Origin: Aureococcus anophagefferens
Lineage: Eukaryota > Sar > Pelagophyceae > Pelagomonadales > Pelagomonadaceae
DNA length: 64,000 nucleotides
Assembly (NCBI RefSeq): GCF_000186865.1
Contig: NW_008705592.1
Span: 151,700-215,699, forward strand
Direction: 5' to 3'
Below, piece by piece: positions 2,896 to 57,647 of this stretch (its first letter is position 1; the number at the start of each line of letters is the position of its first letter). The notes under the pieces were generated by a model. That model had not been told where the DNA came from, did no database searches, and was given only the letters and a program-made list of their open reading frames with translations. The translations under genes were made by a program, and so were the position numbers.

Positions 2896-5800
2896 TCAGG
2901 ACGCGCGCATGGTCATGTGGATCGACGAGCGCGCGACGCGGAACCCGTTGAGCACCGCGGCGGCGAGCAGCACGACGAGCATGGCGAGGTTGAAGCGGCG
3001 GTTCTCCGGGATGGCGTCGTAGTGGTGGAGGACCCAGTCGTAGCCCCGGTCCCGGTCGCTGTTGCGGTGCGTGAAGAAGTAGACCCAGCCGTTCTGGATC
3101 GCGTACGTGAGCGGGTTCGCCCAGTAGAGCCAGATGAAGATGTCCTTGAAGCGGTGGCGCGCGACGAGGCCGCCGGAGCACGTGAGCATGACCAGGATCA
3201 GCGGCTCCGTGACCTGGGCGACGCGGATCTTGTCCGGCACCGCGAGCCCGACGGTCATGGCGACGGCGACGAACGTCGCCGCGGCGACGGCGCTGCCGAA
3301 CGCGCAGGGCGCGACGCGCCACAGATCCATGGGCAGCCCCAGCAGAAAGTAGAGCCAGGGCATGATGCTCAGGCAACACAAGAAGACCCAGCTCAGCGTC
3401 ACGGTGCAGCGCGCGGCCCAGTACGCCTCCGCCGAGTAGAGCCCGTTGCGGAACTCGCGCGCGACGAACGCCCTCTCTCCCGGGACGAGCATGACGGACA
3501 CGCCCATGGACGACATGGCGGGCACGCTCGAGATCATGTAGACGGCGATGCCCAGGTAGACGTTGGGGCCGAAGTTGTGGAAGTTGAGCGCCGCGAACGT
3601 CCCCGTCGCGAGCGGCGCGGTGAAGAAGGCGATGCCCTGGGCCGGGTCCACCTTCCAGAGCTTGACGTTGCGCCGCACGAGCGCGAGATACTGGTCGGCG
3701 GGGCCCAGCGCGTAGGCGCCGGCCCGCGCCGCGACGCCGGTTTTCTTCGCCGCGTCGACCGCGGGGACCGCGGCCGCGGCCTCGGCCCGGGCCTGGGGCT
3801 CGACGCCGCCGCGCGCGAGCTCGACCATGACGAAGTCCGCGGGGTTCTCCAGCGGCGGGCAGGCGCGGCCCCGGCCCTCGAGGAAGGGCTTGAGGCCCGC
3901 CGGAGCGCCGCCGTAGACGGGCCGGCCGCCCGCGACGACGACGAGGCGGTGGAAGGTCTCGACGATGGCCCAGGGGGGCTGGTGGATCGTGCAGATCACC
4001 GTGCGCCGCTCGACGGCGCTGAGCGACGTGATTATTTTGGCGACGAGGAGCGTCGCGGCCGCGTCGAGGCCCGTCGTCGGCTCGTCGATGATCATGACGG
4101 GCCGGTCGCCGAGGAGGTCCATGGCCACGCTCAGCCGCTTCTTCTGGCCGCCGGAGAGCGACGGCTTGTCCGGGCCGCCGACGACGACGTCGCGCTTGCC
4201 GTCGAGGCCCAGCGACGCGAGCACGCGCGCGCACGCCGCGGGCGCCGCGCCCGCGGGCAGGCTCAGCAGGGCCTTGTGGTGCAGCGTCTCGCCAACGGTT
4301 AGCTCTGCGATGAGGGCGTCGTCCTGGGGCGTGTACGTCGCCAGGAGCCGGAACTGTTCGGGCCTGGGCAGGAAAAGGGTGCGAAATTCCAAACTTCAAA
4401 GGCTCCTATCTCGGTCGTTTTCCGCTCGTTTCGGCTGATTTTTGGACGAGCGATCATCTCTCGGAGCGCTCTCGAAGCGTGGGTACTGTTTTTGAAACGC
4501 GCGCGCGCGGAACACTCACGTTGAAGCGACGTAGAATCACCCTTTTCCTGCCCTGGTTCCGGCGACGCCTCGGCGCCGTCGACGAGGACCCGGCCTTGGG
4601 TTTCGCCCGCGACGCGGCCCCCCAGGGCGTCGAGGAGCGTGCTCTTGCCCGCGCCGCTCGGGCCCATGAGCGCCGTCGCCGTCGCGCCGGGGAAGACGAC
4701 CGTCGCGTCCTTGACGGCCGCCCTGTCGGGGCCGCCCTTTGCGTCCGCGGCGTGCCAGAACCAGAGGCGGTCCGCGGCCACGGCCACGGGCGTCGCGCCC
4801 GCGTCGGCGCCGCCGTAGGTCGCCTTGTCGGCCTCGAGGGCCTCGTATTCCCCGTCCTTGGCGGGCTTCGCGACCTCGACGCGCGTCGGCGGCGCCGGGT
4901 CCTGCCGCGCGAGCGACCGGGCGCACGCGACGCCCCCCGCGGCGACGACAAAAACCAGGATGGCGAGCTCCGCGAGGTAGCAGGACCGCACGTTGCCCGG
5001 GTTCACGCCCCAGAACTCCTTGGACCGCAGGAGGTAGTACGCGGCCTCGTCCGCGTGGTCTAGCGTCACGCAGAAGATGATCTTGATGTAGTAGTGGAAG
5101 ATGTTCGCCTTCTGGAGGTAGAAGAAGGCGGGCCGCATCATGTGGCCCGGGATGAGGAAGCCCGACGTGAGGAGGGAGAAGACGTGGAACGCCGTCACGA
5201 GGCCCGGCCCGAGAGTCTTCTCGAACGCGCAGCCGATGCCGAGCCCGATGACGGTGCACTTGGCGAAGTGGACGATCGTCGCCGCGTAGAAGTGCCAGAG
5301 GAGGGCGTAGGGCGCCGCCGTCGCCGGCCGGCCGGCGTTCATGCCGTGGACGCCCATGACTATTGAAGTAGTGACAAGGGCGGCGACGCACGCGGACGCG
5401 CACGCCACCGAGACGCGCGCGGCCCAGTACGCGGACGCCGCGTAGGTCCCGTTGCGCCACTCGCGCTTCACGAAGGGCCGCTCCAGGGGCACGTAGACGG
5501 CGGCGGGCGTCGCGCAGCCCAGGAAGACCGTGAAGCCCCAGAAGAGGAGCATCTCCGCCTTCGACTGGCTCCACGACTCGTCGTAGACGAGCGAGCTGCA
5601 GAAGAGCGCGACGACGACGACGATGCAGTAGGTCGTCAGGGCCTGGCCCGGCGCGGCGACCCAGATGCGCGCCGTGCGGCCGAGGAGCACGGCGTACTGG
5701 CGGCCGAGGGGGACGTCGTACTCCGCGGGCGCGCCGCCGCCGCCGGCCCACGCGTCGGCCATGCTCGCCGCGTAGAACTGGGACGCCTTCGCGAGCGCGT

Positions 5801-6850
5801 CGTGCTTCTCGCGCGACGCCTCCCATTTGTCGGCCCACGCGCCGGGGTCCGCGTCGAGGGCGACGAGCGCGGCGTCCGCGGGGTTGCCGCCGCCGTCGGT
5901 CGGGGCCGCGGCCGCGAAGTACGCGGGCGCGGCGTCCGGCGCGCCGGCGAAGGCCGCGCGGCCGCCCGGCGCGAGGAAGAGGACCTGGTCGAAGGTGGAG
6001 AAGAGGCCCCAGGACGGCTGGTGGATCGTCGCCACGACCGTGCGCTGCTCGTCGCGCGCCGCGGCCTGGGCAGCAAAAGGGTGATTCAAGTTCTCTTCAA
6101 CATGAGTGTTCCGCGCGCGCGCGTTCCAAAACAAGCGGCCACGCGTCGAGACCGCTCCGAGAGATGATCGCTCGTCCAAAAATCAGCCGAAACGAGTGGA
6201 AAACGGCCGAGAAAGGAGCCTTTGAAGTTGGGAATTTCGCTCTCTTTTGCTGCCCTGGCCGCGGCCTGGAGCAGGTCCACGAGGTCCTTCGCGGCCGCCG
6301 CGTCGAGGCCGCTCGTCGGCTCGTCCATGAGCAGCACGGGCCGCCCGCTCAGGAACTCGATGGCCGCGCTCAGGCGCCGCATCTGCCCGCCGCTGATGCC
6401 CACGGCGCCGCCGCCGCCGACGCGTTTGTGGGAGGCGGCCGCGAGGCCGAGGCGCTCGAGGTAGCCGTCGACGCGACCGTCGTCGCCGCCCGCCGGCGCC
6501 CGCAGGGCGTGCGCGTAGACCAGGGTCTGCCGCACGGTCAGGTCCGCCAGCAGCTCGTCGTCCTGGGGCATGAGCGTCGCGAGCCGCCGGTACGCGGCGC
6601 GCGGCGGCACGGCGCCGTCGACGAGCACGGCGCCGGACACGTCGCCACCGCCGCGGCCGCAGAGCAGCCCGAGCAGCGTCGATTTCCCCGCGCCGCTCGG
6701 GCCCATGAGGGCCGTCAGCGTGCCCGGCTCGAAGCGCGCGTTCACGCCGGAGACGAGCGTCGCGCCGTTGACGACGTAGCCCAGGTCCAGCGCCTCGAGG
6801 GTCACGCCGGCGCGGCCCCCGACCTCCACGTCCGCCACGTCCTTGCCCAT
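2896..6850 (-). CDS. Full-size ABCG (PDR-type) ABC transporter
   Basis: Exons 6850-6266, 6065-4564 and 4363-2896 join in frame to 1184 residues with the order NBD-TMD-NBD-TMD. NBD1 has Walker A GPSGAGKST (about 50-58), Q-loop MPQDD (~95), signature ISGGQ (~152), Walker B MDEPTSGLD (~175-183) and H-loop ATIHQPSW (~210). NBD2 has a second GPSGAGKST (~663), TPQDD, LSGGQKKRLS, IIDEPTTGLD and CTIHQPPW. Each NBD is followed by a hydrophobic six-helix type region. This is a plasma-membrane or organelle exporter of the ABCG family; the substrate cannot be told. Both introns are family A introners: one falls between Walker B and H-loop of NBD1, the other between Walker A and Q-loop of NBD2. It shares a 244-bp divergent promoter with the flavin monooxygenase. 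Confidence 0.93.
4364..4563 (-). mobile_element. Introner A1 (family A, antisense to host gene)
   Basis: Element 4364-4555 with perfect 16-bp inverted ends (GGGCAGGAAAAGGGTG). TSD gttcgggc (4356-4363) and gttccggc (4556-4563), 7 of 8 identical. The intron on the - strand is 4563-4364: GC donor from the TSD, CCCAG acceptor from the element end. Splicing gives EASPEQFRLLATY in NBD2. The internal orientation is opposite to the sense copies. Confidence 0.93.
6066..6265 (-). mobile_element. Introner A2 (family A)
   Basis: Element 6066-6257, TSD gccgcggc at 6058-6065 and 6258-6265. The 200-nt - strand intron uses a GC donor and a CAG acceptor. Joining gives DLLQ|AAARDEQRTVVATIHQP, as expected for an ABCG nucleotide-binding domain. 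Confidence 0.94.
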
Positions 6851-6949
6851 GGTCGTCGGCGCGGCCTGCTTCAGGACGTCGCGCGGTCGGGCAGCCCGAG
6901 GAAGGGGTCTGGGAACCTCAACACATTGACGCGATCGGAAAATACGATG

Positions 6950-6983
6950 CTTTTGACGTCAAAAGGTAGCTTTCGTGAGTCAC
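6950..6983. promoter_or_regulatory. CRE palindrome and AP-1-like site in divergent promoter
   Basis: CTTTTGACGTCAAAAG (6950-6965) is a perfect 16-bp palindrome centred on TGACGTCA. Ten bases on lies GTGAGTCAC (6975-6983), a palindromic TGAGTCA site. Both are classical bZIP targets. They sit between the ABCG gene (start 6850, -) and the monooxygenase (start 7095, +). Confidence 0.55.
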
Positions 6984-7094: not shown

Positions 7095-9126
7095 ATGTGC
7101 GCCCCGCCCGGCGCCATGCTCCACGCCGAGCCCCGCGCGCTGGCGGGGCGGCGCGTCCTCGTCATCGGCGCCGGGCCGAGCGGCCTCGTGGCGCTCAAGG
7201 AGCACCTCGCCTGCGGCAACGACGCCGTCGCCGTGGAGCGGACGCCGCGCATCGGCGGCTGGTTCGCCGCCGACGACGACGCGGCCTACGACACGCTCAT
7301 GCTGACGACGTCCAACTACTTCATGGCCTACAGCGACGCGCCGCCGCCCAAGGGCGAGAAGATGCGCTACTGGACGAAGAAGGAGTACGCGGCCTACCTC
7401 GAGGCCTACGCGGCGCGCTTCGACCTGAAGCCGCACATCGAGTTCTCCACGGACCTCGTCCGCTGCGCCTACGCGGGCGGCCGGTGGACCGCGACGACGC
7501 GCGCCGGCGGCGCGGCCGCCGAGCGGTCCTTCGACGCCGTCGTCGCGTGCACGGGCAGCAACAGCGACCCCAAGTGGCCCCGCGAGGTCGCCGCGGGCTT
7601 CCCGGGCGCGCAGCTCCACTCGTCGGACTACAAGAACGCGACCCGCTTCGCGGGGCAGACCGTCGTCGTCGTCGGTTTAGGCCAGGGCAGCAAAAGAGAG
7701 CGACATGCCCAACTTCCAAGGCTCCGATCTCGGCCGTTTTCCACTCGTTTCGGCTGATTTTTGGACGAGCGATCATCTCTCGGAACGGTCTCGACGCGTG
7801 GATGCTTTTTCCGGAACGCGAGCGCGCGCGGCACACTCACGTTGAAGCGACGTTGAATCACTCTTGTGCTGCCCAGGCCTCGGCGAGTCGTCCGCGGACC
7901 TCGCGAGCGAGGTCGCCGCGGTGGCCGCGCGCGCGGTCGTCTGGACGCGGTCGCCGCCGACCATCGCGCCGCGCTTCCCCGCCCTCCTCGACAAGTTCCC
8001 CGACGAGTACGCCATCATCACGGACAAGGCGGAGGCGGACAAGTGCGCGATGCCCGACTTTCTCGAGTACATGACGACGCCGCGCGTCATGCAGGCCGCG
8101 TCCGTCTTCCTCGTCGGCGCGAACAAGCAGCAGTACTTCGGCATGATCAAGGACGACGCGAGTGCGTCGCCCGAGGCGCGGCTCAGCGCCAAGCTCATCG
8201 TCGCGGCGACGAGGGACGCGTACTACCAGAGCGACCAGGCGCGCTACATCACGAAGAACGGCCGCCCGCTGAAGCTGCTCTGCGAGGGGAAGATGAAGCT
8301 CGTCTGCGCGAAACAATTGGCCGTCGGCGCCGACGCCGTGGCCCGTTTTACGGACGTGAGCTTCGCGGACCTCGACGCGTGCGACCCGCCGCGCGCGGCG
8401 GTCGACGTGCCGAACGTCGACGCGATCTTGTGGTGCACGGGCTACACGACGAAGCTCGCCTGGCTCGCCGAGGACCTGCCCCGGGACCCCCGGGCCTGGT
8501 ACAAGCACTGCTTCGCGCCCGGCTACGGCGCGTCGCTCGCCATGGTCGGCTGGGCCCGGGGCCACCAGGGCGGCATCCCGCAGATGGCCGAGCTGCTCGC
8601 GCGGTACCACGCGCTCCTCGTCGCCGGCGAGCGAAAACTGCCGGCGGACTACGCGGCGCGCGCGGCGCGCGACGGCGCGGAGGAGACGGCCTACTACCGC
8701 CTCTCGCCCCAGCTCCGGCCCCTCGTCGACTACCCGGCCTTCGCGGACTCCGTCGCGGCGCTCATCGGCTGCGAGCCGCGCGCGCCGAACCCGCTCCTCG
8801 ACCCGGCGCGCTGCTTCAAGTACTGGACCTACCCGCTCTGGGCGTGCTGGTTCCGCGAGGTCGGGCCGGGCGCCGCGCCGGACGTCCTCGACGACGTCCT
8901 CGGCCGGTTCCCCGTCAAGGAGTCCGTGGCCGTGTCCCGGAACAACTCGCCCGCGCCCTTCGGCGTCTTCCCCATGCTCGTCATCGGCGCCATCTCCGCG
9001 CTGCTCCAGCTCGCGCCGTCGCTCGTGGGGCTCGCCACGGGCAAGTTCGCGCCCGGCTTCACCGCCGGCTGGGGCTGGGCCAAGCCCAAGCACCGCGTCC
9101 TCCACCGCGGCGCGGCCCCGGCCTAG
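7095..9126 (+). CDS. Flavin-containing monooxygenase
   Basis: Exons 7095-7674 and 7877-9126 give 609 residues. The N-terminal FAD site reads VLVIGAGPSGLVALKE. The FMO fingerprint appears as FPGAQLHSSDYK, and the NADPH-binding loop VVVVGLGESSADLA is completed only after splicing. A second half with WCTGY-like and GH-rich segments follows, ending in a hydrophobic stretch (MLVIGAISALLQLAPSL) that could anchor it to membrane. The family oxidises N- or S-containing small molecules with NADPH and O2; the substrate here is unknown. The intron is introner A3, inserted within the codons of the NADPH loop. It is transcribed away from the ABCG transporter, perhaps under shared bZIP control. Confidence 0.9.
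7675..7876 (+). mobile_element. Introner A3 (family A) with GT donor
   Basis: Element 7683-7876. The upstream TSD copy is gtttaggc (7675-7682), the downstream one gcctcggc (7877-7884), 5 of 8 identical. Using GT at 7675 and CAG at 7874-7876 gives VVVGLGESSAD. The upstream copy seems to have changed from GC to a stronger GTTTAG donor. Confidence 0.9.
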
Positions 9127-9972: not shown

Positions 9973-12074
9973 ATGGTCCGCGCCGACGAGGCCCGCGTCG
10001 CGAACTTCGGCCGCGGCCCCGGCGCGTCGTCGGGCCGCTTCGCCGTCGTCGACGGCGACGTGCGCGAGCTCTGGAAGTCCTGCGCCGGTCTGGAGGCGGC
10101 GGCGCGGGCCGCCGAGGCGAAGCACGTCGTCGACGACGCCGCGCTGGAATGCCGCGAGCTCGCGCGGCGGCGCCGCCGCGCGGCCCAGCGCGAGGCGCGG
10201 CGCGCCGCGCGCGACGCCGCGCGCGTCGGCGCGTCGCTGCGGCGCATGGAGGACGACGACTACGGCGGCGAGCGGCCCTTCACGTCCCGGTGGGGCGGCG
10301 CGCAGGCCGTGCCCGTGCGCCACGACCGCTACTCGCTGTCGAAGCGCGGCGGCGGCGTCGACGTGAAGCGGAACCTCACGGGCGCGGAGACCGCGCGCCT
10401 CGCGCTCGCCAAGTACCGCGACGGCGGCGCCGGCGTCGCGGACGAGCCCGCGGCCGCGGCGCCCGCGCCCGCGCCGGACGCCGCCGCGGCGGCGCCGGCG
10501 GCGGCGCCGCGCGTGCGCTACCTCTACGAGCTCGGGCGGAAGAAGCAGCGGTCGCGCGCCGTCGCGGGCGACGAGGACGCGCGCGTCTACGCGTGGCGCG
10601 CGACGGGCGCGGCCGCGCAGGGCGACCCGGCCTGGTGCGTCGCCCGGCGCGCGCTTACCGCAAACGAGACGCGCGGCGGCTTCGACGCGGCGCGGAAGGC
10701 CTGGGAACCGCGGCCGCGCGCGCCGGCGCCGCGCGCGGCCGACGCGAAGACGCGCGGCGTCGTCGTCTGCGCCGCGGGCTGGCGGGGCCCCGCGGCCAGG
10801 CACGTCGCCGGCATCTTGAAGGTCTACGCCTGCCCGCCGGGCCCGGCGGACGGCAGCCTCGTGACGCGGCGGAAGCGCCTCGTCCACGAGGGGCCCCTCG
10901 GGCTCCACGTCGACGGGGCCGCGTACGCCGAGACCCGCGTCGCCGCGGGGCTCCTCGACGACGAGCTCGACGTGCTGCTCGTGGTCTGGGAGGTCGCGGA
11001 GGAGCGCGCGCCGCGCGCCGTCGCGTCCGTCGAGTTCCGCGTCGAGGACCTCGAATTGGACGTCGGCGACGCGGACGCGTTCGCGCGCGGCGACGCGCTC
11101 GAGGAGCCCTGGCGCTGGGTCGACCTCGCGCCCGCGAAGGCCGCGATGAAGCTCGCCGTCGCGCGCTGCGCGCCGCCCCACGAGGCGCCGCCCGAAGCGC
11201 CGGAGCCGCCGCGGCGCCGGGCGCGGCCGCCGCCGCCGCCCGCCGCGCTCACCTTCGTCGGGCTCCGCGCGGCGCTGCCCGCGTCGCTCGCGCGGTCCGC
11301 GCGCCTCGACGTCGCCCTGCTCGTCGGCGCGGGCGTCACGCGGGCCGCGGCGGACGCGCGCCTGGACCTGCGGCCGGGCGAGCGCTTCGTGTCCTGCGGC
11401 GTGCCCCGGAACGCCGCGCTGAAGCTCGAGGCGCGCGACGCGTCCGGCCGGAGCCTCGGCGCGGCGCTCCTGCGCTTCCACGGCGACGTCCTCGGCGGGA
11501 CGCGGTCGGCGTCGCTGCGGGGGGGCGTCCCGGGGGCGCGGGCCGTCGTCGAGCTCGCCGTCGCGCCGCTCGGCGACGCCGCGGTCGCCGCGCGGACCGG
11601 GGCGGGACAAGCGCGCGAAACTTCCGGGGCTCCGAGCTCGGTCGTCGTCCACTCGTTTCGGCTGATGTTTGGACGAGCGACCATCGCTCGGAGCGGTCTC
11701 CAAGAGTCGACGCTTTCGAAACGGCGCGACACGCGCACGTTGAAGCGACGTCGCATCGCGCTCTTCAGGCGCGGACCGCGGACGTGCCGCGCGTCGCGGA
11801 CGGCGACACGCACGCGCTGGCGCCGCCGGCGCTCCGGCGCCTCGTCCTCGACGGCGCGCGGCTCCACGTCTTCGACGCGGCGAAGCCCCTGGCGGCGCTC
11901 CGGACGCTCGACCTACGGGGCGCGGAGCTCGAGGACGTCCGCGTCCGCGACGCCGCGGGCGCGGACGCGGCCGCGGTCGTCGTCGCGCCGGCGCGGGGCG
12001 ACGCGCTCCTCGTCGACGGCGCCGGGCGCGGCTTCCCCGGGCTCCGGGACCGGCTACGCGCGGCGGTTCAATAA
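9973..12074 (+). CDS. Unrecognised protein, possibly C2-like
   Basis: Exons 9973-11589 and 11769-12074 give 640 residues. The N-terminal ~180 residues are charged and Ala/Arg-rich with short helices. The middle and C-terminal parts are beta-rich with alternating hydrophobics (LDVALLVGAGVTR, ALKLEARDASGRSLG) that look like C2 or other beta-sandwich domains. No family was recognised with confidence. The intron is introner A4. The gene ends in TAATAAA at 12072-12078, only 12 bp from the convergent gene's stop. Confidence 0.7.
11590..11768 (+). mobile_element. Introner A4 (family A, diverged)
   Basis: TSD gcgcggac at 11590-11597 and 11769-11776. The start CGGGGCGGGACAAG and end CTCTTCAG have drifted from the consensus, but the core TTTCGGCTGATGTTTGGACG is clear. 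The intron is 179 nt, GC donor, CAG acceptor, phase 0, joining AVA|ARTADVP. Confidence 0.85.
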
Positions 12075-16938: not shown

Positions 16939-19900
16939 CTAGGCGTCCTCGTCGGAATCCTCGGAATCAACGTCGCCGCGCGCGGCCGCGGCCGCGGTCG
17001 GAGTACACGCGCGTTTGCTGCGGCGCGGCGCGGCGGCGAGGTCGTTCGCAGCCGCGGCGCGGTGGCGCTTGGACGCGGCCTCGCGGGGCGGCGCGCGGCG
17101 GCGCTTGGCCTGGGGCGCGTCGTCGTCGTCTGACTCGTCGTCGTCGTCCGAGTCCCAGTCGTCGACGCGCTTCCCGGCCGTCGGCGGCGGCCCCAGGTTC
17201 GAGGGGAGGCAGCAGGCGGGGTGGAGCCGCGCGTTCCGCGGCCCGCCGACGAGCCACTCGCCGGTTTCGTCGTCCAAGAGAAAGGCGCGCCCCGCGACGT
17301 CCCAGGGGCCTTTGCCTTGGGCGCCGCCCGCGCCGAGCCTCCGGTAGACGAGGCGGATCTTCCCGTCCCTCCGGGCGACGTCGCGGCCGACCTTGTGGGC
17401 CAAGGCCTCGACGACGCGCGCCTTGACCGCGGAGGGGATGTCGGCCACCATCGACTGTGCCGGGTCCCCGAGACTCGCGGACTCGTCCAAGTTCAGGAGC
17501 CGCTCGAGCAGGAGGTCCGTCTTGGATTTCGCGACGTAAATCGCGGCGGAAGCCGAGGTGATTGAAGAATTCAGGCCCTCCGTCGCGACGTCCTGGGACC
17601 CAAGCGACGTCCCGAGCACGTGCAACGCGATCCACACCTTGCCACGCGAGCCGCGGGCCTTCTTGATCCAAGCCTCGATGAGATCGGTCAGTTCCTTCTC
17701 TAGCTGCTCGAGGTACTCGTCCGTGAAGGCCTCAGCGTCGGCGCCGAGGAGCGCCGCCCACTTTTCAGCTCGCTTCAGCTTCCTCGCGCGTCGCTTTGCC
17801 GCTTCGACCTCCGCGTAGTAGGCTCGACGAGCTTCAGTGCACGCATGACAGAGAAGCAGTCGCCGTCGGTAGTCAGCCCTTTCGTGATAGGGGTTCTTCG
17901 GGAACCACTTGAAAGGAAGTAGCGCACCCTCCGCGTGGCCGCCCCTGTTTCCGAAACAGCGATGGCCGCGCAGGCAGCCGTCTTTGTCGCACTTGTAGTC
18001 GTCGCATGGCTCCGTGTCCACGAACGACTCCGTGCACTGCATCGCTCGTCGCCGCGACTCCGACAGGCCGTCGCTGTCTCCCGCCGCCGGAAGAGGATAC
18101 TTCTTCAGGCACTTCGCGACGTCTTCGAGACACCAGCACAACGTGTCCGCGTCCGCGTCCGCGTTGGCCTTCTTGTCTTTGTCGGGGACTTCGCCGCACA
18201 GCAGAACGTCCCAGCTGGACCTGAAGTCCACGACGACCCTGCCCTTGCCGAAGAGTAGCTTCAGCGCGTTGTGGCCCCTCTGGCCGTCGTTGAAGGCGCC
18301 GCCTGTGTGCAAATCAACCAGTGAGCTGGGACGTCGGGGCCAAACTTCAGAATTCTCTAGCTCGGTCAAATCGAAGTCGATTCGGCTGATCTTTGGACGA
18401 ATCGATTGCTCTCAGCGAGTTCTCGAAGCACGGCGGAAGTGATCGTGTCAAAACATTCGAATACGCGCACATTGAAGTCGGGTTGAAGATTTGATTTGCA
18501 CACAGGGCGCCGCCGAGGGACGCGAAGTCGCCCGTGGGGTGGAACTTGAGCTCGGCGAGCGAGCGCGGCTCCGAGCCGTCGCTGAGCACGTCCGGGTCGT
18601 CGAAGGGCTCGTACTGGCTCACGAGCGCGGCCACGAGGTCGCCCTCGCCGGCGGACGGCGGCGGCGCGGCGCACTTGCACGACGCCGCGAACCCGCCGGG
18701 CACGTCGACGTCCATCTCCAGGCAGGCCGCGCCGCAGCAGGTCACGTCCGCGTCGCCCGTGGTCGAGCCCTCGCCCTCGTCGTCCGTCGCGCCCGTTGTC
18801 GAGCCCTCGCCCTCGTCGTCCGTCGGCGCGTCGCTGGACGCCTCCGCGTCCTCGACGGAGACGTCGTCGTCCACGTCGTTCATGTGCGAGTCCCCGTCCT
18901 CCTCGAACCCCGACGTCTCGCCCGCGTCGCTCGCGTCGGCGCCGTCCTCCTCCGAGTCGCTCGCGTCGTCGTCGTCGTCCTGGAGCCGCCGGTGCTCGTT
19001 CAGAAGTACGAGCGCCGCGGCGACGCTGTCGGCGACCGAGTTCGCGGCTTTCGTGCGGCCCGGTTCCGGCGGGGGCAGCCCGGCCTTGCCGTAGGCTTGT
19101 TCGTAGGGGCGTAGATGTTCGGCATGCTCGGCTGTCTTGCGCTCCATCTTCTCCGTGAACTCCTGGCGCGTCGCCCGCCGCCGTCGCTTCTTCGGCTTCG
19201 ACTTCTTCGCCGCCGCCGCCCACCCGGGACGCTGCTCGTCGAGCTCCCGCAGGCACCGCTCCCTCGCGTCAGCCGTCCCGGGCATCGACTGGACCTCCAG
19301 CGCGGCGCGCAGCTCGGCAACCGCCTCGCCGGGCTCCGCGGACGCCATCTTCGCGAAGTACTTCTGCGCGTGGGTCCGGATCTGGTCCGCGGTCCGCGTC
19401 GGGTGGAAATTGGCCATTCCAGACGCGTCCAGGCCGTGATAAAATCCGCGCAAAGATTCACAGTGCTCCTCAGGGGTCCAGCTTCCCGTCACGTCCACGG
19501 GCGCCACCTCGACCGCGTCCGTCGGCAACTCCGCGGCCGGGAACTCCTCGCGCAGGGCGACGACCTCGTCCTTCCACTTGCTGATGAGGCCGCGCGACGT
19601 CTCCGTCTCCTTCGACTGCTTCGACGTCTCCGTCTCCTTCGTCTCCTTCGTCTCCTTCGGCTTCTTCGACTTCTTCCTCTTCTTCGACTTCTTCGCCATG
19701 GCCGCGACGGCCTTCTCGACGAGCTCCTGGGGCACGTCCGTGGGCCAGAGCAGCGCCTCGAACCCCGAGATGGCCTTCTCCCCTCGGAGCACGGACGCGA
19801 CCTGGTTGCCCGTCTTCATGACGGTTCCGAAGAGTTTCGGGAAGGCCTCGCGGAACGCCTCGCAGATGCCGCGGGCGTTCGCGAAGAACAGCCACTCCGC

Positions 19901-35200: not shown

Positions 35201-36685
35201 CCACGACTGCTCCTTCTTCGCGAGCTCCGCGTCGAGGCGCTCGAGCCTGGGCAGCAAAAGGGTGATTCAACGTCGCTTCAACTTGAGTGTTCCGGCGCGT
35301 GCGCGTTCCAGAAAAAGCGCCCACGCTTCGAGAGCGTTCCGAGAGATGATCGCTCGTCCAAAAATCAGCCGAAACGAGCGGAAAACGGCCGAGAAAGGAG
35401 CCTTTGAAGTTGGGAATTTCGCTCTCTTTTGCTGCCCTGGCTCGAGCATCTCCCGCTCCTTGGCGTTGACGCCGTCGACGGCGGCCTGGCGCGCGGCGTC
35501 GACCTTGCGCTCGGCGTTGGCCTTGCGCTTGCGCTCCATCTGGAGGGCCCACTTGGAGCCCGCGACGTCGCTCTTGAGCTGCTCGATCTCGTCGAGGAGG
35601 CCCTGGACGGACTTGACCTTCTTCGCGGACCGGCGGCCGGCGCCCCCGGACGCGCCGGTCGAGGCGTCGCCGTGCTCGAGCTCGTAGGCCGTCGGCACGC
35701 ACTTGGGCAGCCACTTGGGCCGCGTCGCGCCGGACACCGCGCCCTCGCACGCGTGCTTGAGCTTCGCGTCGACGTCCGCGAAGGGCGCGTGGCAGACGTC
35801 GCAGGTCTCGCCGACGGACTCGGCGCAGTAGATGCGCCAGGCCTCGACGTTGAAGCGGTCGAAGGCGCCGCTGGGGTCCCGGTTCGACGACGGCATGGGG
35901 CAGTCGTCGTCGGCCGGCGCGTGCGGGATGGGCCGCCGCCACTCCTCGGGCAGGCGCTTCTGCTCGCCCGTGCGCCGGCGGATGCAGCTCTTGACGTGGA
36001 TCTTGAGGGACGACGTGCCAAAGTCCAGCCCGCAGAGGTAGCAGACGAGCTGCTTCGGCCGCACGCGGCCGCCGCCGCCCATGGAGAGGCTCTGGCGGCT
36101 CGGCGGCCGCGACGACGCGTCGCTCCCCGGCGTCAGGGGCCGCGCGCGCCAGTCGGCGTCGCGGGACGCCCGGGTTTGGCCGCCCTTGCGCGAGTTCGCG
36201 TGGCGCAGGCGCGCGCTGGCCTTGGGCGGCTCGTCGTAGTTCACAGGCTCCCCTTTGTTGGGGCGCTTGATCCGGAGGCTGAAGCCGCGGCTCGTGTGCG
36301 CGCGGTCCAGGTTCTTGCCCAGGCGGCTCTCGTACGCGCGCGGCGGCGCCTCAGCCTCGGCCTCGGCGGGCGCCGGCGCGCCGGCGAGGAGCGCGCCCGC
36401 GTCGAACGCCGGGTCGTCGCCGAGCGGGCCGACGTAGGACCCGGCCGCGTCCGAGTCCAGCGAGTCGAGCGTCGCGTGCGACCCCTCGTCCTCGAGGGCG
36501 AGCTCGAGGGTCAAAGCCCGCGACAGCGCCTGCGGCGACATGGCCACGTCCAGCGTGTCCCGGCTCGGCGTCGCCGCGGCGGACGGCGTGCCGGCGCCGC
36601 CGTCGAGCGGCGTCGGCGGCCGCACCCAGAGCTCCGCCGCCGGCGCATCGTCCGGCGCCGCCGCCGGCGCCGACGCCGCGTCCAT
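32258..36685 (-). CDS. Coiled-coil protein with C2HC-type zinc fingers; four introners
   Basis: Five exons (36685-35448, 35246-34898, 34743-34288, 34097-33420, 33208-32258) sum to 3672 nt and 1223 residues in one frame. The N-terminal ~200 residues are acidic and disordered. A ZC2HC1-type finger (YLCGLDFGTSSLKIHVKSC, ~212) and a second C-x2-C...H...C motif (CDVCHAPFADVDAKLKHAC, ~295-315) follow. From ~340 to ~1080 the protein is almost continuous coiled coil (KALVQQAEEKDKEKLRALEH and similar). The tail is basic and Ser-rich. It resembles structural proteins of cilia or centrosomes in layout, but no family was recognised. All four introns are introners, two of family A and two of family B. Confidence 0.85.
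33209..33419 (-). mobile_element. Introner B2 (family B)
   Basis: Element 33209-33411, ends CTGTGTGCAAATC / GATTTCCACACAG, TSD tcgacggc at 33201-33208 and 33412-33419. GC donor, CAG acceptor, joining ATRIKA|VETELKDEQ so the coiled coil continues. Confidence 0.94.
34098..34287 (-). mobile_element. Introner B3 (family B, diverged ends)
   Basis: TSD tgcttcgc at 34090-34097 and 34280-34287. The ends have drifted (the 3' part reads GAGTTTCCAG in the gene sense), but the core CGTCCAAAAATCAGCCG is intact. Intron 190 nt; exons join as VRAMAKHAAMHGK. Confidence 0.88.
34744..34897 (-). mobile_element. Introner A5 (family A, short diverged copy, GT donor)
   Basis: TSD gactcgac (34736-34743) and gcctcgac (34890-34897), 7 of 8 identical. 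At 154 nt it is ~45 nt shorter than full copies. Donor GTCGAG, acceptor CTTTCAG; exons join as LHAQ|VESASAKLA. Family A parts such as CGAGAGATGGGCGCTCGTCC are still readable. Confidence 0.82.
35247..35447 (-). mobile_element. Introner A6 (family A)
   Basis: Element 35247-35439, TSD gctcgagc (a palindrome) at 35239-35246 and 35440-35447. GC donor, CAG acceptor; exons join as AKEREMLERLDAELAKK. Confidence 0.94.
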
Positions 36686-36846
36686 CGGTCGCGGAGGCGC
36701 GACGCAACGCTAGGCCGTCTCCGCCTTCGGCGCCGTCATCTCTCCCACTTCGGCGGAACCGCGTTGTTGAGAAGGTTTGTCGTTGGAGTCAATAACAGCT
36801 TATATCTTTACGCAGCCCACTTTTGCGCGCGGAATCGTTCAAGCGC

Positions 36847-40786: not shown

Positions 40787-42886
40787 ATGGCGGCGCAGCT
40801 GGCGTCCGCGGACGGGGGCGACGCGGCGCGGCGCGAGGGCGAGAAGACGAAGCACCGGAAGACGGCGGTGCTGCGCTTCAACGGGAAGCCCAAGCTCGGC
40901 CTGGAATACCTCAAGGGCATGGGCCTCTGGGACGGCACGCCCGAGGGCCTCGCGGCCTGGGTCGCCGGGGCGCTGGAGACGGGCCTGAGCAAGCGGCGCG
41001 TGGGCGAGTTCTTCGGCGGCACGCACCCGCTGGCGACGCCCACGTTCGACGCGTGGCTGGGCCTGCTCGGCGGCGACCTGGGCCCCGGCGCGACGCTCGA
41101 CGGCGCGCTCCGCGTGCTGCTGCGCAAGTTCCGGCTCCCCGGCGAGGCGCAGTGCATCGACCGCGTCATGGAGGGCTTCGCGCGGGCCTTCAAGAGGGCG
41201 AACCCGCCGGAGAGCGCCGAGCCCTGGCCGTACAGCGAGGACGCGGCGTACGTCCTGAGCTTCTCCCTCGTCATGCTCAACACGGACCTCCACTCCCAGA
41301 ACATCAAGGACGCGGACCGCATGACGCGCGACGGCTTCGTGTCCAACAACCGGGGCATCGACGCGGGCGGCGCGGACCTGCCGCGGGCGCTGCTCGAGGC
41401 GCTGTACGACGGCGTGAAGCGCGAGGAGATCAAGATGGACGAGGGCGACCTCTACGAGTCGGAGCTCATCACCTACATGGGCGCGCGCAAGGCCGGCTGG
41501 CTCGAGAAGTGCAACGACAAGGGCCTCTTCTCCGTGAAGCACCGCTGGCGGAAGCTCTGGTTCGTGCTCAACGACGGCTGCCTCTACTACTTCCTGTCGC
41601 CGGGCGACGCCGACGTCGCCGAGAAGCCGCCGCGGGCCATCGTGCCCCTGGACCAGGGGTTGGAGGTGCTCAAGCCCCTGGGCGCGGCGCCGGGCCGCGA
41701 GTTCACGCTCGTCGCGCGCGAGGACGACGCCGGCGCGCCCGCCGGGCCCCGGCGGCCCATCAAGTCCATGAAGCACACGTCGGCGGGGCCGAGCCAGGGC
41801 ACGGCGGACGCGATCCGCCTCCGCGCGCGCGACGTCTCCGACGCGCAGGCCTGGGCCGCGGCGCTCCGCGCCGAGGAGGAGGCGCTGCCCAGGGCAGGAC
41901 AAGAGAGCGAAATTCCAAACTTCAAAGCCTCATATCTCGGCCGTTTTCCACTCGTTTCGGCTGATTTTTGGACGAGCGATCATCTCTTAGAACGGTCTCG
42001 AAGCGTGGATGCTTTTCCCGGAACGCGCGCGCGCGGAACACTCACGTTGAAGCGACGTTGCATCTCTCTTGTCCTGCCCAGGCGCTGCCCGCGGGCGGCG
42101 CGGCGCTCACGGCGGCCAAGGCCGCGGCCGCGGCGCGCCAGCGGCGCCTGAGCGCGGCGGCCGCCGGCGACGGCGGCGTCGTCGCGCCGGCCGCGGACAA
42201 GTGGAAGGCCGCGAACGGGGCGGGAAACGGGCGCGAACGTCCCGACTTCAAAGGCTCCTCGCTCGGCCGCTTTCCACTCGTTTCGGCTGATTTTTGGACG
42301 AGCGATCATCCCTCGGAGCGCTCCCGACGCGTGGATGCGGTTTACGGAACGCGCGCGCGCGGCACGCCCACGTTGAAGCGACGTTGAATCACCACAGGCC
42401 GCGAAGCAGCCGAACTCGCACACGCCGCTCCACGCGGGCTGGCTCCGGAAGCGCGGCGAGATCAACACGGCCTGGCGCAAGCGCTACTTCGCCCTCTTCA
42501 GCGGCGTCACCTGCACGGACGTCGAGGGCGAGATCCCTCCGCCCGACGAGCCCGTGCTCATGTACTTCAAGGACGAGGACAAGTTCCGCGACCTCGTCGC
42601 GGGCGCGGCCGCGCGGCCCTACAAGGGCGCCGTGCGCCTCGGCGCCGTCACGGAGATGAAGCGCCGCACGGCCGACGCGGGCGAGAAGGGCAAGCGCGCC
42701 GCGGGCCTCGCGCTCGTCACGGGCGACCGGACCTGGTACCTCGCGGCCGTCGACGACAAGTCCGCCGGCGACCTGGAGCCCTGGTGGTACGCCCTCGAGG
42801 GCGCCTGCCACGCCGCCCAGCTCGGCGCCACGGCGCGCCGCCCGTCGTCGTCGAACCTCACGGACAAGGTCAAGGCCGCGCGGTGA
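40787..42886 (+). CDS. ARF guanine-nucleotide exchange factor, Sec7-PH-PH
   Basis: Exons 40787-41881, 42082-42207 and 42398-42886 give 569 residues. The Sec7 domain spans ~25-210, with the glutamic finger in FRLPGEAQ (E120) and FSLVMLNTDLHSQNIK. PH domain 1 (~228-365, GWLEKCNDKGLFSVKHRWRKLWF) and PH domain 2 (~415-545, GWLRKRGEINTAWRKRYFAL) follow, the layout of cytohesin-like GEFs but with a second PH. It activates ARF GTPases on membranes; PH domains bind phosphoinositides. Both introns are introners and fall at the end of PH1 and in the linker before PH2. Confidence 0.94.
41882..42081 (+). mobile_element. Introner A7 (family A)
   Basis: Element 41890-42081, TSD gcgctgcc at 41882-41889 and 42082-42089. 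Intron 200 nt, GC donor, CAG acceptor, joining AEEE|ALPAGGAAL in phase 0. Confidence 0.95.
42208..42397 (+). mobile_element. Introner A8 (family A, diverged ends)
   Basis: Element 42216-42397, TSD gccgcgaa at 42208-42215 and 42398-42405. The start CGGGGCGGGAAACGGG and end ATCACCACAG have drifted. Intron 190 nt, GC donor; joins DKWK|AAKQPNSH. Only 126 nt of exon separate it from A7. Confidence 0.93.
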
Positions 42887-43678: not shown

Positions 43679-45647
43679 GGCGGGGTCTTATCAGCGAGGA
43701 ACAGCGCGCCGCCGGCGAGCTCGAGGTCGTGGATGGGCACGTCGAGCTCGCGCGCGAAGCCGTCGAGCACGCGCGCCTCGCGCGACCGGCAGAGGGAGAC
43801 GACGAAGGCCGGCGCGCCCGGCGCGCGGCCGCAGCGGCCCGCGCGGTGCGCGTAGTGCGCCGGCGTCGACGGCAGCGAGTCGTGGTTGACGACGTGCGTC
43901 ACGCGGCGCGCGTCGAGGCCGCGCGCGGCGACCTCCGTCGCGACGACGACGGCCGGCGCGGCGCCCGCCGCGAGGTGGCGCACGGCTTTCGCGCGGTCGT
44001 CGCCGGAGACGGCGCCGGCGAGGGGCAGCGCGTCGACGTTGCACCGCGTGCGGAGCGCGTTCGCGACGGCGATCGCGGCGTCGCCGTCGTTGACGAAGAC
44101 GACGGCGGCCTCGCAGGGCGGGTCGTCGGCGCGGAGCACGCGGCGCAGCGCCTCCAGGGCGCTCCGGTCGTCCCTGATCGTCACGCGGCCGTGCCGCGCG
44201 CCCGCGCGCAGCGCGCCCGCGACGACGCCGGCCGCCGCGCGCGCGTCGACGAGGAGCGCGTCTCTCGCGCGGTCGCGCACCGTCGGCGCGAAGGTCGACG
44301 CGGCGTCGCCGTCGAGCAGCGCGGGCGCCGTCGCGGACGCGCAGACGAGCCGCGCGGTCCGCGGCGCGGCGCCGAGGACCGCCTCCAAATCGTCGACGAA
44401 CGGCGCCGCGGCCGTCGCGTCGGCCTCGTCCACGATGATCGCCGCGACGCGGCCCAGCTTCAGCGGCCGGCTCCCGTCGAGGGCGAACTCCGCGAGGCGG
44501 CCGGGCGTGCCGACGACGACCTGGGGCTTCCGCTTCTTGAGCCGGTCGCGCATGCGGCCCGCGTTCGCGCCGCCGAAGATCGCGGCGACCTCGAGGTCCG
44601 GGAAGAACGTCGCGGCCGCGTCGGCGATCTGCACGGCGAGCTCGCGGCCCGGCGCGACGACGAGCACGCGGACGGCCGCGTCGCGCGGGTCGACGGCCGC
44701 GAGCGCGGGCAGCAGGAACGCGAGCGTCTTGCCGCCGCCTGGGCAGCACAAGAGTGATTCAACGTCGCTTCAACGTGAGTGTTCCGCGCGCGCGCGTTCC
44801 AAAAAAAGCATCCACGCTTCGAGACCGTTCCGAGAGATGATCGCTCGTCCAAAAATCAGCCGAAACGAGTGGAAAACGGCCGAGAAAGGAGCCTTTGAAG
44901 TTGGGAATTTCGCTCTCTTTTGCTGCCCTGGCCGCCGCCCGTCGGCGCCGCGAGCAGGGCGTCGCGCGCCGGGTCCGCGCGCCAGAGCGCAGACTGCGCG
45001 AGCGTCGGCGCGTCGAAGCCCGCGGCGGCCAGCGCCGCGGCCGTCGACGCCGGCAGGTCCCACGCCTCGAACGTCTCCGGCGCCGCGGCCGCCTCGTCGC
45101 GCGCGGGGCCCGGGGCGTCGGCGAAGGCCGCGCGGCGGCCCAGCGCCGCCAGGGCGTCGTCGACGGGCCGCGGCTTCTTCTTCTTCTTCTCCTTCTTCTT
45201 CTCGCGCGGCGCGGCGGTCTCGCGCGGCGCGGCCTCGTCGCGCGGCGCGGCCGCGGCGGGCGCCGCCGGCTCCGCGGCGGCGCCGCGCCGGCGGCGGATG
45301 AGGAAGTCGTCGCCGAAGGCCGGCCGCGCCTCGCGGCCCCAGCCGCCGAGGCTTCGCGGCGCCTCGGCCGGCGGCTTCGCCGCCGCCGGCGGCGGCGCCG
45401 CGGCGTCGTCGTCGTCGTCGTCGTCGTCCCCGCCGCTCCAGGAGGCGAAGCGCGCGCGCAGGCGCGCCTCGCGGTCCTCGATGCTCGCCGACGCAGACGG
45501 CGCCTCCACCGCTTTGTTGCGCCGCTTGTGCTTGCCGCCCTTGCTCTTGCCGCGCTTCGGCGGCGGCGGCGGGCGGGCGCTCAGCGCCGCGACGATGGCG
45601 GGCGCGGCGATGACAGCGATGAGGCAGAGCTTCAGGGCGTTTTTCAT
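43675..45647 (-). CDS. DEAD-box RNA helicase with N-terminal signal-like sequence
   Basis: Exons 45647-44939 and 44738-43675 give 590 residues. The first ~22 residues (MKNALKLCLIAVIAAPAIVAAL) are hydrophobic, suggesting an organelle or ER route. A disordered Ala/Pro/Lys/Asp region follows to ~200. Helicase motifs: Q-region F-DAPTLAQ, motif I APTGGGKT (formed only after splicing), Ia APGRELA, Ib TPGRLAEF, II VDEADA, III SAT, V ATEVAARGLD, VI HRAGRCGR. A plastid ribosome or RNA role is plausible from the presequence but unproven. The intron is introner A9. Confidence 0.9.
44739..44938 (-). mobile_element. Introner A9 (family A)
   Basis: Element 44739-44930, TSD gccgccgc at 44731-44738 and 44931-44938. 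- strand intron of 200 nt, GC donor, CAG acceptor; it splits the Walker A motif and joins APTG|GGKTLAF. Confidence 0.95.
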
Positions 45648-51864: not shown

Positions 51865-53674
51865 CTAGATCGCGCCCGCGCCGCCGTCGAAGGCGCCGTC
51901 GGTCGCGTCGGCCTCGTCGCCGTGGACGAACGTGAGCTGCGTGTCGACGGCGTAGTTGTAGAGGCCCTTGCGGCCGAAGTCGACGAGGACGCGCTTCGCC
52001 GCGTTGGGCATCGTGAGCACGTTGCAGGGCCCGACGACGACGCCGCGGTCGCCGACGCGGACCGCGTTGTAGGCGACCTTGGCGACGACGCGCGTGCCCT
52101 TGGCGAAGTGGGGCGCCCCGGCGACGAGGGGCGCGTGCTTGAGGTGGCCCAGGGGCACGTCCTTGGCCGGCGCGCCGTTGGCGACGTCGACGGCGAGCGC
52201 GCCCGCGCGGCGGCCGAGCCCGAGCACGACGCCGCGGACCTTCTTGCCCAGGGCCGGCCCGACGACGACCTCGTCGCCGCGCACGAAGTTCGTGCCCTCG
52301 AGGAGCGGCGCGAGCTGGAGCTGCGTGTCGCAGCGGTAGTTGTACGCGGCCTTGTTCTCGAAGTCGACGAGCACGCGGAGGTCCGCGCGCGACATCGCGG
52401 GGTCGCTGCAGGGCCCGACGACGACGCCCCGGTCGCCGACGGTGACGGCCTCGTAGTCCACGGACGCGAGGACGACGTCGCCCTTCAAAATCGCGGGCGC
52501 GCCGGGCACGACGACGACGGGCGCCGCGCGCACGTCCGCGCCCGCGGACACCTCGGCCTCGACGCCGTTGGGGAAGCGCACGAGCAGCGCGTCCCGCAGG
52601 GACCGCGACCGGCCCCGGCCGACGACGACGCCGCGGTCGCCGACGTTGAACTTCCGCGGCCGCGCGGCCGTCGCGAGCACGCAGTCGCCCAGCACCTGCG
52701 CGGATGCCAAATCTTCAACCCGACTTCAATGTGCGCGCGATCGAACGGTGTGGAACACAGTATGTCGCTGTGCTTCGAGAACTTGACGAGAGCGATCGAT
52801 TCGTCCAAGAATCAGCCGAATCGACGTCGATGTGACCGAGCTCGAGAGTTCTCAAGTTTGGTGGGGACCCCCCGAACCGGCGGTCGGAATCCACGCCGCC
52901 CAGCGCGTGGCCGCCCAAAATGGGCGCGCGGCGCGCCTGCTGGCCCTTCGTGTAGACGTAGGTGCCCTTGCCGTCGTCGAACTTGATGCGGCAGCGCTTG
53001 TGCGGCGCCTTCTCCGACGAGTCCTCGCAGGGCCCGACGACGACGCCGCGGTCGCCGACCATGACGCGCTTCCACGCCGTCGCGGCGACGACGAGGTCGC
53101 CGACGGCGAGGTCGTACTGGAGGGGCAGCTGGCCCGCGGCCCGCGGCGCGCCCTGGCCCGACGCCCAGGGCGCCGCCGCCGCCGCCGCGCCCGAGCTCTG
53201 GCCCCAGAAGCGGCCGCCGGAAGAGCTAGCGGACCGCGACCGCTCGGGCGTCATGGACCGGCTCCGCGGCGGCGGCGGCGGCGCGCTCGCCTGGGCCCCG
53301 CTCGCGGCGCCGTGGAGCGTGTCCCAGCACGCGCGCGCGCGCTCGAGCAGGGACCGGTTCGCGCCGTCGACGCCGAGGTGCTGGCACGCCTGGTCGACGA
53401 CCTGCGCGACCGTGCCCGCGACGCCGAGCTCGCGCCGCAGGCTCGCGACGATGCGGTTCAGGGGCGGCGCGCCGTCGGGGGACGGCGCGTCCGGGGCCGG
53501 GGGCAGCGCCGCGCCGTCCGCGAAGACGGGCACGGCCTCCGCGAAGACCGCCGGCGGGCCGTCGTCGAAGCCGTTGGCCGCCATGGCCGTGGCGATGACG
53601 GGCCGCGCGGGGCCCGTGGGGGGGACCCCGCCGCCCGCGCCGCCCCCGGACGAATTCGTCATCGTGTTGCCCAT
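51865..53674 (-). CDS. Protein with KOW-like GDRGVVVGPC repeats
   Basis: Exons 53674-52907 and 52695-51865 give 532 residues. MGNTMTNSSGG could be myristoylated. Residues ~85-140 form a helical segment (NRIVASLRRELGV ... GRACWDTLHG-like). The rest contains four clear and one degenerate copy of a ~60-75-residue beta repeat with core VGDRGVVVGPC and a trailing R(I/V)LVDF...Y(N/V)Y motif. These resemble KOW/SH3-like barrels but no named family is recognised. The single intron is introner B4, between repeats 1 and 2. Confidence 0.78.
52696..52906 (-). mobile_element. Introner B4 (family B)
   Basis: TSD cccagcac (52688-52695) and cccagcgc (52899-52906), 7 of 8 identical. In the gene sense the donor is GCGCTGGG and the acceptor CGCGCAG, followed by GTGCTGGG. 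Intron 211 nt, phase 0, joining LGGH|VLGDCV. Confidence 0.9.
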
Positions 53675-53794
53675 GGTCCCCGCGGTGGAGCGCGTCCACC
53701 CGAGCAGAACTCCCTCCACCCGGGGGGCAGCCCGACGGGTACTTTTTCGCGCCGGAGGTGAAGCGGGTGACGGCACCGAGCGAAGGTGCACTTC

Positions 53795-53928
53795 GCGTCA
53801 CGGACTTCCGAACTGGGGCAGCCCCTATGGACGCGGCCGCGGACCTCGCGCGGCGAGTGTAGCGTCGCGGACTTCCGAGTGCGGGCAGCCCCCCTATGGA
53901 CGAGGCCGCGGACCTCGCGCGGCGTTCG
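53795..53928 (+). repeat. 67-bp tandem duplication of a translation start region
   Basis: Copy 1 (53795-53861) and copy 2 (53862-~53928) share GGACTTCCGA, GGGCAGCCCC, and ATGGAC.. CCGCGGACCTCGCGCGGCG. Copy 2 holds the start codon of the PqiA-like gene (53896); copy 1 holds an ATG at 53827 that opens an 11-codon ORF ending TAG at 53860-53862, encoding MDAAADLARRV, nearly the gene's own N-terminus. Confidence 0.88.
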
Positions 53929-55503: not shown

Positions 55504-55545
55504 AACACGGGCTCCTTCGCGTCCCGCGGCTCCAAAAAAGGTCCC

Positions 55546-57647
55546 TTAGGCGGGCCACCAGGCCGGGTAGGCGAAGACCCAGGGGGGCTGGACGCCCGAC
55601 GCCTCGAGGACGCTCTGGAGCACGCCGGCGACGCCGTCGCCCGCGAGGAGCGCGGCGCCGAAGAGCTGCGCGCGCCGGTCGCGGTGCTCCGGCGCGACGC
55701 GCCCCCACGCCGCGAAGACGCCGAGGCCCAGCAGCGAGCAGAAGACCTGGCCCGAGAGGAGGATGAGGCCGACGCCGAAGGCGATGCCCGACGGGATCAT
55801 CGGCTCGACGCGCGCGGGCGCCTGGGCAGGACAAGAGTGCGAAATTCCCAACTTCAAAGGCTCCTAGCTCGGCCATTTTCCACTCGTTTCGGCTGATTTT
55901 TGGACGAGCGATCATCTCTCGGAGCGCTCTCGAAGCGTGGGTGCTGTTTCCGAAACGCGCGCGCGCGAAACACTCAAGTTGAAGCGACGTTGAATCACCC
56001 TTGTCCTGCCCTGGCGGGCGCGAGGTCCCGCGCGACGTCGAAGCCGACGGCGGCCGCGCCCGTCGCCGCGGACAGGGCGAGGCAGTGGCGCGGGAGCGCG
56101 CCGAGGCCGCCGGCGAAGGCGAAGGCGAGGCCCCGGTAGGACTTGGCGATGACGCAGGGCAGGTCGGCCGACGGCAACGGCACGCGGTCGACGTACCACG
56201 CGTACAGGACCGCCGCGGAGACGACGGACGCGGCCGCGCCGACGCACTGGGCGGCGAAGACGGCCTTCGGCGGCGCGCCCACCAAGTGCGCCGTCTTGAA
56301 GTCGCGCACGAGGTCGAGCGCCTGGTCGATGACGGCCGTCGACAGCGCGCCGAGCGCGAGCACCGGCACGACTCTCGGCTCGCCGTACCAGGCGGCGAAG
56401 AGGATGATCATGACCTTGCCGCAGGAGCTCGCGACGTTCGACCCCGTCGTGCCCACGGCGACGGTGATGCCCAGGGACCAGAGCGGCGCCGCGAGGAGCG
56501 CGACGGCGGTCATCGCGTACGAGCACCCGAAGAGCGGCGGGAGCGCCAAGAGCGCGACGAGCGACGCCGCGGCCCAGGCCGCGACCCAGGCCCGCGTCGG
56601 CGGCCGCCAGGCCGCGGGGGCCGCGGCGCCGCCGAGGAGCGCCGCGCCGAGGTCGCCGCCGCCGCCGTCGTCGCCGCGGGGCTTCCGCCGCGGCCGGAGC
56701 CGCGCCGCGAGCCGCAGCACCTGGTAGACGGCGTCGAGGGCGATGGCGAAGATGGCGGGGACGTAGTAGTAGGCCTCGAGGCCCTCGAAGCCCGCCGCGC
56801 CCGGTGCGTACCAGTCGCCCTCGCGCGCCGCGGCGACCGGGATGAGCACCCCGGACGCGAGGATCGCGCCGAGCGCCTCGGAGAGGATGAAGCGCGCGTC
56901 GACGATGAAGCCGTGGCCGAAGGGCGCCACGCTCAGGTGGAGGGACCACTTGTGCCGCGCCTGGGCCCGCAGGCCGAAGACGGCCAGGCGCTCGACGCCG
57001 CTCCAGCACCACGCGCCCGTGGCCCAGGCCGCCGCGGGCAGCGCGCATGCGAGCAGGAACCGCGGCGCGCCGTCGTCGCCGCCGCCGTGGAGCGACTCGA
57101 TGGTCCTCGCCGCGGCGACGGCGTAGGGGAACGGCAGCGGCTCGTCCTCGACGTACCTCCGCCGCAGCGGGATCGCCAAGGCGAAGCCGATGAAGCAGAG
57201 CGCGCCGCAGTAGGCCAGGAGGCGCGGCACCGTCGGCGCCCAGGTGTCGACGTCGCCCTCGAAGCCCACGGCGTCGCGCAGCTCCGCCTGCATCGCCAGG
57301 ACCGCGAAGGGCAGCGAGCTGCCCCAGATCATCGCCGTGGCCGCGACGGCGGCCGCCATGAGCACGCAGGTCTCCGGGGCCGTCGGCGGCGGCGCGCCGG
57401 ACGCCCGCGACCAGAGCGACAGCGCCGCGTAGCCCAGGATCGCCGCGGAGATGTTGTTCGTCACGGTCCAGCCGTACTTGAGCGCGAAGTAGATGTTCTC
57501 GAGGGTCGTGACCGTGCCGATGGCGAGGCCCAGGGCGACGGCCCGGAGCGTCAGGCCCTCGTAGCCCGACGGGTCCGCCGCCGCGCCCTCGGCCTCCAGC
57601 GGCTCCCGCTCGTCGCCGCCGTGGGCCACGACCTGGGCGCACATCAT
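55546..57647 (-). CDS. Oligopeptide transporter (OPT) family protein
   Basis: Exons 57647-56022 and 55821-55546 give 633 residues with ~14 hydrophobic helices. The N-terminal part GLTLRAVALGLAIGTVTTLENIYFALKYGWT is typical of OPT proteins. ...FKTAHLVGAPPKAVFAAQCVG and the C-terminal PSGIAFGVGLILLSGQVF also match OPT. The family carries peptides, glutathione or metal-nicotianamine complexes with protons; the substrate is unknown here. The intron is introner A10, whose removal completes the last two helices. Confidence 0.9.
55822..56021 (-). mobile_element. Introner A10 (family A, antisense to host gene)
   Basis: Element 55822-56013, TSD gcgggcgc at 55814-55821 and 56014-56021. GC donor, CCCAG acceptor; exons join as RDLAPARVEPMIPSG. 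The internal orientation is antisense, like A1. Confidence 0.94.

Follow-up and report, generated by a model that had tools for sequence, protein, structure and literature searches.

The window, the whole stretch of 64,000 nucleotides analysed here, is part of contig C32 of the Aureococcus anophagefferens genome (49.05 Mb in 86 contigs) and has a GC content of ~72%. It contains two related families of repeats, A with ten copies and B with four, and all 14 copies that the initial annotation had placed in the coding frames of nine genes were found, within nine open reading frames. They are listed below with their flanking repeats (5' / 3' where the two differ) and the support for the predicted exon junction.

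4364..4563, minus strand: A copy in an ABC transporter gene; 5' repeat GCCGGAAC, 3' repeat GCCCGAAC, 7/8; junction within ABC_tran
6066..6265, minus strand: A copy in the same ABC transporter gene as the 4364 copy; GCCGCGGC, 8/8; junction within an AAA_21 match, the ABC_tran match stopping before the junction
7675..7876, plus strand: A copy in a flavin monooxygenase gene; GTTTAGGC / GCCTCGGC, 5/8; GT donor; junction within FMO-like
11590..11768, plus strand: diverged A copy; GCGCGGAC, 8/8; frame only
18303..18513, minus strand: B copy; GCGGCGCC, 8/8; frame only
33209..33419, minus strand: B copy; GCCGTCGA, 8/8; frame only
34098..34287, minus strand: diverged B copy; GCGAAGCA, 8/8; frame only
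34744..34897, minus strand: diverged A copy without the core; GTCGAGGC / GTCGAGTC, 7/8; GT donor; frame only
35247..35447, minus strand: A copy; GCTCGAGC, 8/8; frame only
41882..42081, plus strand: A copy in a Sec7-PH (cytohesin-like) gene; GCGCTGCC, 8/8; environmental proteins
42208..42397, plus strand: diverged A copy in the same Sec7-PH gene as the 41882 copy; GCCGCGAA, 8/8; environmental proteins
44739..44938, minus strand: A copy in the Walker A motif of a DEAD-box helicase; GCGGCGGC, 8/8; junction within DEAD
52696..52906, minus strand: diverged B copy; GCGCTGGG / GTGCTGGG, 7/8; frame only; by eye, the junction lies in a motif repeated within the same protein
55822..56021, minus strand: A copy in an OPT transporter gene; GCGCCCGC, 8/8; junction within OPT
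32261..36709, minus strand: 1231-residue frame, open across four introns (33209, 34098, 34744 and 35247)

Terminal inverted repeats are present in both families (ends CWGGGCAG in A and CTGTGTGSAAATC in B) and are eroded in diverged copies, for example that at 34744. Target-site duplications were observed at 14/14 copies, and their identity reproduced exactly the counts given earlier: 8/8 in ten copies, 7/8 at 4364, 34744 and 52696, and 5/8 at 7675. Random pairs of window 8-mers 160-214 bp apart are identical at 8/8 by chance in 0.03% of cases. When one repeat plus the element was taken as the intron, GY...AG boundaries were obtained in 14/14 window copies, with 12 GC and 2 GT donors. The predicted introns are 154-211 nt long, compared to the ~150-210 nt first noted. 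A core shared by the two families is present in 13/14 copies, compared to a mean of 0.02 in 100 shuffles; the copy at 34744-34897 has lost it, yet aligns to family A. The core (for example at 44845-44863) consists of a nearly invariant GGCTGATTTTTGGACGA with short complementary flanking arms that, by eye, differ by family. Within it, GATTTTTGG resembles an Sm site; that the core was found in both orientations speaks against a role as RNA. Neither Rfam, at its gathering thresholds, nor a tRNA scan gave a hit in the window.

One frame is open across each of the 14 junctions, and since further frames are often open at most junctions in DNA of 72% GC, an open frame alone is weak evidence. Independent protein support was obtained for 7/14 junctions, five within Pfam matches and two through uninterrupted environmental proteins. 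The initial annotation had stated that frame and recognisable motifs are restored every time; this stands for the frame at all 14 junctions and for the protein at seven, the rest having the frame only. Six pieces were scanned against Pfam. The junctions at 4364, 6066, 7675, 44739 and 55822 fell within matches, among them the helicase and monooxygenase junctions that had been singled out before, and both junctions of the sixth piece, Sec7-PH, lie between domains. For the four-intron gene a protein search returned no relative at E <= 0.001, leaving seven of the 14 junctions supported by frame alone. The monooxygenase search gave 89 hits, none of them a protein named as A. anophagefferens; the nearest named relative among the best-sharing candidates, which alone were scored, was from Chrysophaeum taylorii (46%).

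Eleven environmental proteins (P0090-P0100) match the spliced Sec7-PH query with 99-100% identity over all 454 residues, and the three that were aligned (P0090, P0095 and P0097) are continuous through the junctions at 41882 and 42208. The source of these uninterrupted proteins may be cDNA or empty sites. The longest contig behind one of these proteins spans 16.1 kb and may point to genomic DNA that lacks the Sec7-PH insertions rather than to cDNA. As the environmental proteins lack the interruptions, some insertions may still be polymorphic in nature. The A. anophagefferens protein JL721_13099 aligns with the gene along nearly its full length and carries SEIPNFKASYLGRFP and NGAGNGRERPDFKGSSLGRFP, which correspond exactly to the translated insertions (41882 and 42208); with these peptides from introner interiors, the deposited annotation counts intron sequence as protein. 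A second named protein, JL720_2614, covers 46% of the query at 96% identity. At window position 41882, P0107 (a nine-member environmental protein) seemingly runs ~10 nt beyond the junction and then into introner-like interior, which seems to be a second nearby insertion or a rearrangement.

Both families were then sought genome-wide, as had been suggested. The strict A-end pattern, from which an A at position -9 is excluded, matched 2,412 times compared to once for its reversed-pattern control, and the strict B-end pattern matched 946 times (control 0). By extrapolation, ~1,660 A and ~690 B copies have an intact end, roughly 2,300 in all. BLAST of 16 sampled 10-kb stretches gave 17 clusters (one a 62-nt fragment) in 8/16, which scales to ~5,200 with wide error. 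The copies are many, near-identical and dispersed, and form predicted introns in unrelated genes. Among the 100 A ends listed, all on C1, GY stands in the splicing position in 99/100, against a background of 0.20. The flank in the donor position is GC in 26 and GT in 20 of the 46 CA tips, and GC in 29, GT in 24 and GA in one of the 54 CT tips. The earlier reading of the donor as coming from the duplication and the acceptor from the inverted repeat therefore holds in 14/14 window copies and at 99/100 of these ends. For the 100 B ends listed (C1 and C2), GY was found in at least one orientation in 99/100 (background 0.36), and for B pairs in 27/27. Duplications are 8/8 in 27/31 A pairs among the listed ends, in 41/53 complete A copies and in 19/27 B pairs; lengths are 192 nt without the 8-bp duplicate in 44/53 complete A copies and 203 nt in 18/22 complete B copies. 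With one splice site in the element and the other from the duplicated target, there were two exceptions: L103 (A end) has a GA donor and an 8/8 duplicate, and L102 (B end) fits neither orientation, its B copy lying within AGGTAGGG, where a two-base shift gives AG|GT inside the duplicate.

The two tips of family A are not equivalent. One CA tip and one CT tip were found in 31/31 pairs among the listed ends and in 53/53 complete copies, position 2 of the inverted repeat being A at the donor-side tip and T at the acceptor-side tip. The 53 copies, drawn from the window and the fetched loci, overlap largely with the 31 pairs but include others. The script admitted both A and T at position 2 of each tip, which made all four combinations possible, and its scope did not extend to tips with C or G; twenty further core matches, B copies among them, were omitted because an end of this kind was missing from one side or from both. 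The arms of the repeat agree at position 9 in 49/53 and at position 11 in 47/53 copies, against which the constant mismatch at position 2 is conspicuous. The interiors lie in one orientation in 30 copies and in the other in 23, a ratio that is biased because seven loci (L002-L008) are the best matches to one antisense copy. Family A thus comprises mirror subfamilies, and since its tips differ (CAGGGC and CTGGGC), splice direction goes with the position-2 mismatch, whatever the orientation of the interior. The B copies that were read carry CTGTG, the sequence demanded by the search pattern, at either tip and could be spliced either way. In the 22 complete B copies, GY fits one orientation only in four, the other only in 12 and both in six.

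A tree of 52 A interiors needs 5 polarity changes (bootstrap 4-6; shuffled mean 17), a count that the bootstrap leaves unsettled, the starred branches forcing only one change; repeated switching of polarity is therefore only suggested. Tentatively, and with rather more doubt than belief, we propose that in family A the position-2 base sets the direction, that this has been reset more than once, and that the same interior now serves as an intron in both orientations. The resetting could occur by inversion of the interior through recombination between the inverted repeats, with tips and splicing polarity left in place. With donors that are almost GY only, the choice of splice site may depend on the inverted-repeat stem; agreement of the repeat arms can be inherited and was not counted as proof of an RNA stem.

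We next considered what the GY bias reflects. Within the duplicated target, positions 1-2 are fixed and positions 3-8 are near background: donor positions +3 to +6 each carry <=0.08 bits over background (n=53), and the values for +7 and +8, slightly off background, are 0.13 and 0.12 bits, C occupying +8 in 0.53 of the 53 copies. We infer that the bias is due to selection against insertions that are not spliced. Target choice by the transposase would instead account for the near absence of listed copies without GY, which selection alone could produce only with almost every copy in an expressed gene, and the mild excess of C at position 8 leaves room for a weak mirrored target preference. A symmetric preference, however, would be mirrored at positions 7-8, and the strong signal lies on one side, as splicing would demand, and is confined to GY, so selection for splicing fits better and target choice as the source of the bias is unlikely. 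Intron phase showed no bias in the window, 9/14 being phase 0 with no difference from the GY supply by codon position (chi-square p = 0.20). On donor improvement after insertion (GC to GT in the upstream copy), 2/53 copies differ in one direction and 1/53 in the other, on which we base no claim.

Two further explanations concern the copies themselves. If they were merely MITEs, lying in pseudogenes or breaking up the genes they entered, open frames would be a by-product of the 72% GC, and more than one frame is indeed open at most junctions. Such a by-product would hardly place GY at 99/100 listed A ends, and it is at odds with full-length environmental proteins that match the spliced form and with domains that are intact across five other junctions; we consider it very improbable. 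That nearly all readable copies look spliceable would also be expected had they spread as RNA, by reverse splicing into transcripts, rather than as DNA. The 8-bp target duplications and inverted repeats, together with interiors that, in A and B alike, can run with or against the direction of splicing, speak against spread as RNA, to which we give hardly any credence.

Collectively, these results make it almost certain that the repeats are introners of A. anophagefferens, short DNA transposons of the non-autonomous kind whose insertion duplicates 8 bp of the target. Such an origin is strongly implied by the inverted repeats, the duplications and more than a thousand dispersed copies, so the transposon identity proposed in the initial annotation stands to that extent; the mobilising transposase was not found. 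In the mechanism we propose, insertion of the short element would generate the 8-bp duplication, the spliceosome would take its donor from the opening dinucleotide of the upstream duplicate (GC or GT) and its acceptor from the AG with which the inverted repeat ends on the far side of the element, and removal of duplicate plus element would bring back the original reading frame. In family A the acceptor would hinge on a single base, which distinguishes CAGGGC from CTGGGC (GCCCAG along the intron). Splicing at all 14 junctions is putative, being predicted from the DNA.

The ends of hAT elements are close to CARNG. The tips of family A read CAGGG at one end and CTGGG at the other (53/53), and those of B read CTGTG. 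The donor-side CAGGG presumably fits hAT ends, and the 8-bp target duplication is likewise that of hAT transposons and their MITEs. A search for the hAT dimerisation domain gave four weak hits. The frame around the C6 hit is 1217 residues long and matches a zinc finger and, below threshold, hAT. A search for DNA copies of the C6 hAT gave seven matches; 456-bp relatives of it at L036 and L037 have ends CGGGGTCGGACG and 8-bp duplicates. The hAT-like features are:

L016:4190-8006, L036, L037 and L039: hAT-like element, end CGGGGTTCGACGTAACG, and 456-bp relatives, ends CGGGGTCGGACGTAACG, with 8-bp duplications (CCGATGGC in L037)
L013:4118-5272: hAT-like remnant on C8, ends CAAGCARGKCCGACGG, duplicate GGCGCAGT

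This genome has hAT-like genes, but the hAT copies found end in CGGGGTCGGACG and CAAGCARGKCCGACGG, unlike A and B, and the acceptor-side A tip is CTGGG. In the 10-kb stretches around the hAT hits, A and B ends never occurred as a pair, the sole finds being two isolated short matches in L016, and scans there for ends and duplications found no transposase gene with A or B ends. The ends and the 8-bp duplications would fit a hAT-like origin, and hAT-type mobilisation would presumably act in trans. MULE and IS1595 searches gave no match at E <= 0.001 while their controls were detected; in KDZ and U1 RNA searches the controls were silent too, so these have no bearing either way. Viral vectors were considered and rejected: a scan of IMG/VR with one pattern, the core, found exact matches in two contigs, where similarity extends over just 17-20 bp, the flanks are unlike and the frames look phage-like by eye, as expected of chance.

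The intron-making system itself is already known in the species. Introners were reportedly described as DNA transposons in A. anophagefferens by Huff, Zilberman and Roy in 2016, and are said to carry one splice site and co-opt the other. The copies studied here are alike in species, in being dispersed near-identical introns of ~200-210 nt, and in their direct and inverted repeats; nothing was found against identity. To this we add the copy number of ~2,300, the near GY-only donor and the tip asymmetry of family A; we do not claim that the asymmetry is unpublished, the literature searched, which did not include the full text of the 2016 paper, containing no report of it. An excerpt of a study on Pelagomonas gives ~210 bp as the characteristic length of Aureococcus introners (PMC9481584), and an excerpt of another states that they display canonical splicing motifs (PMC7789003), whereas family A has GC donors in 34/53 copies. 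Numerous arrangements of donor and acceptor appear in the available sections of Gozashti et al. 2022 (PMC9860276), including, in their Fig. 2B, the one seen here, with the donor from the duplication and the acceptor borne by the element. The authors also report GC and GA donors in some families, as here, and methods that allow for copies in opposite orientation. In the same sections, GC donors make up 0-50% per family, compared to 34/53 in family A, and the Aureococcus sp. family of Fig. 2F carries both splice sites and adds 12 bp, whereas with families A and B the original length is regained. Few sources of new introns are as clear as introners, and mirror-image subfamilies and donors that are nearly GY only offer a simple, testable case of the minimal sequence for a spliceable intron.

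Some further arrangements were noted. B ends ~740 bp apart at two loci were considered as longer elements and rejected, being pairs of separate introners. L101 and L102 each have two B introners whose starts are ~545 nt apart, and this distance may be related to nucleosomes. In the window itself, positions 819-1776 hold a tandem-like repeat with a period of ~133 nt in six overlapping copies, and a perfect inverted repeat of 236 nt occupies 58677-58912 and 63653-63888, its arms 4740 nt apart.
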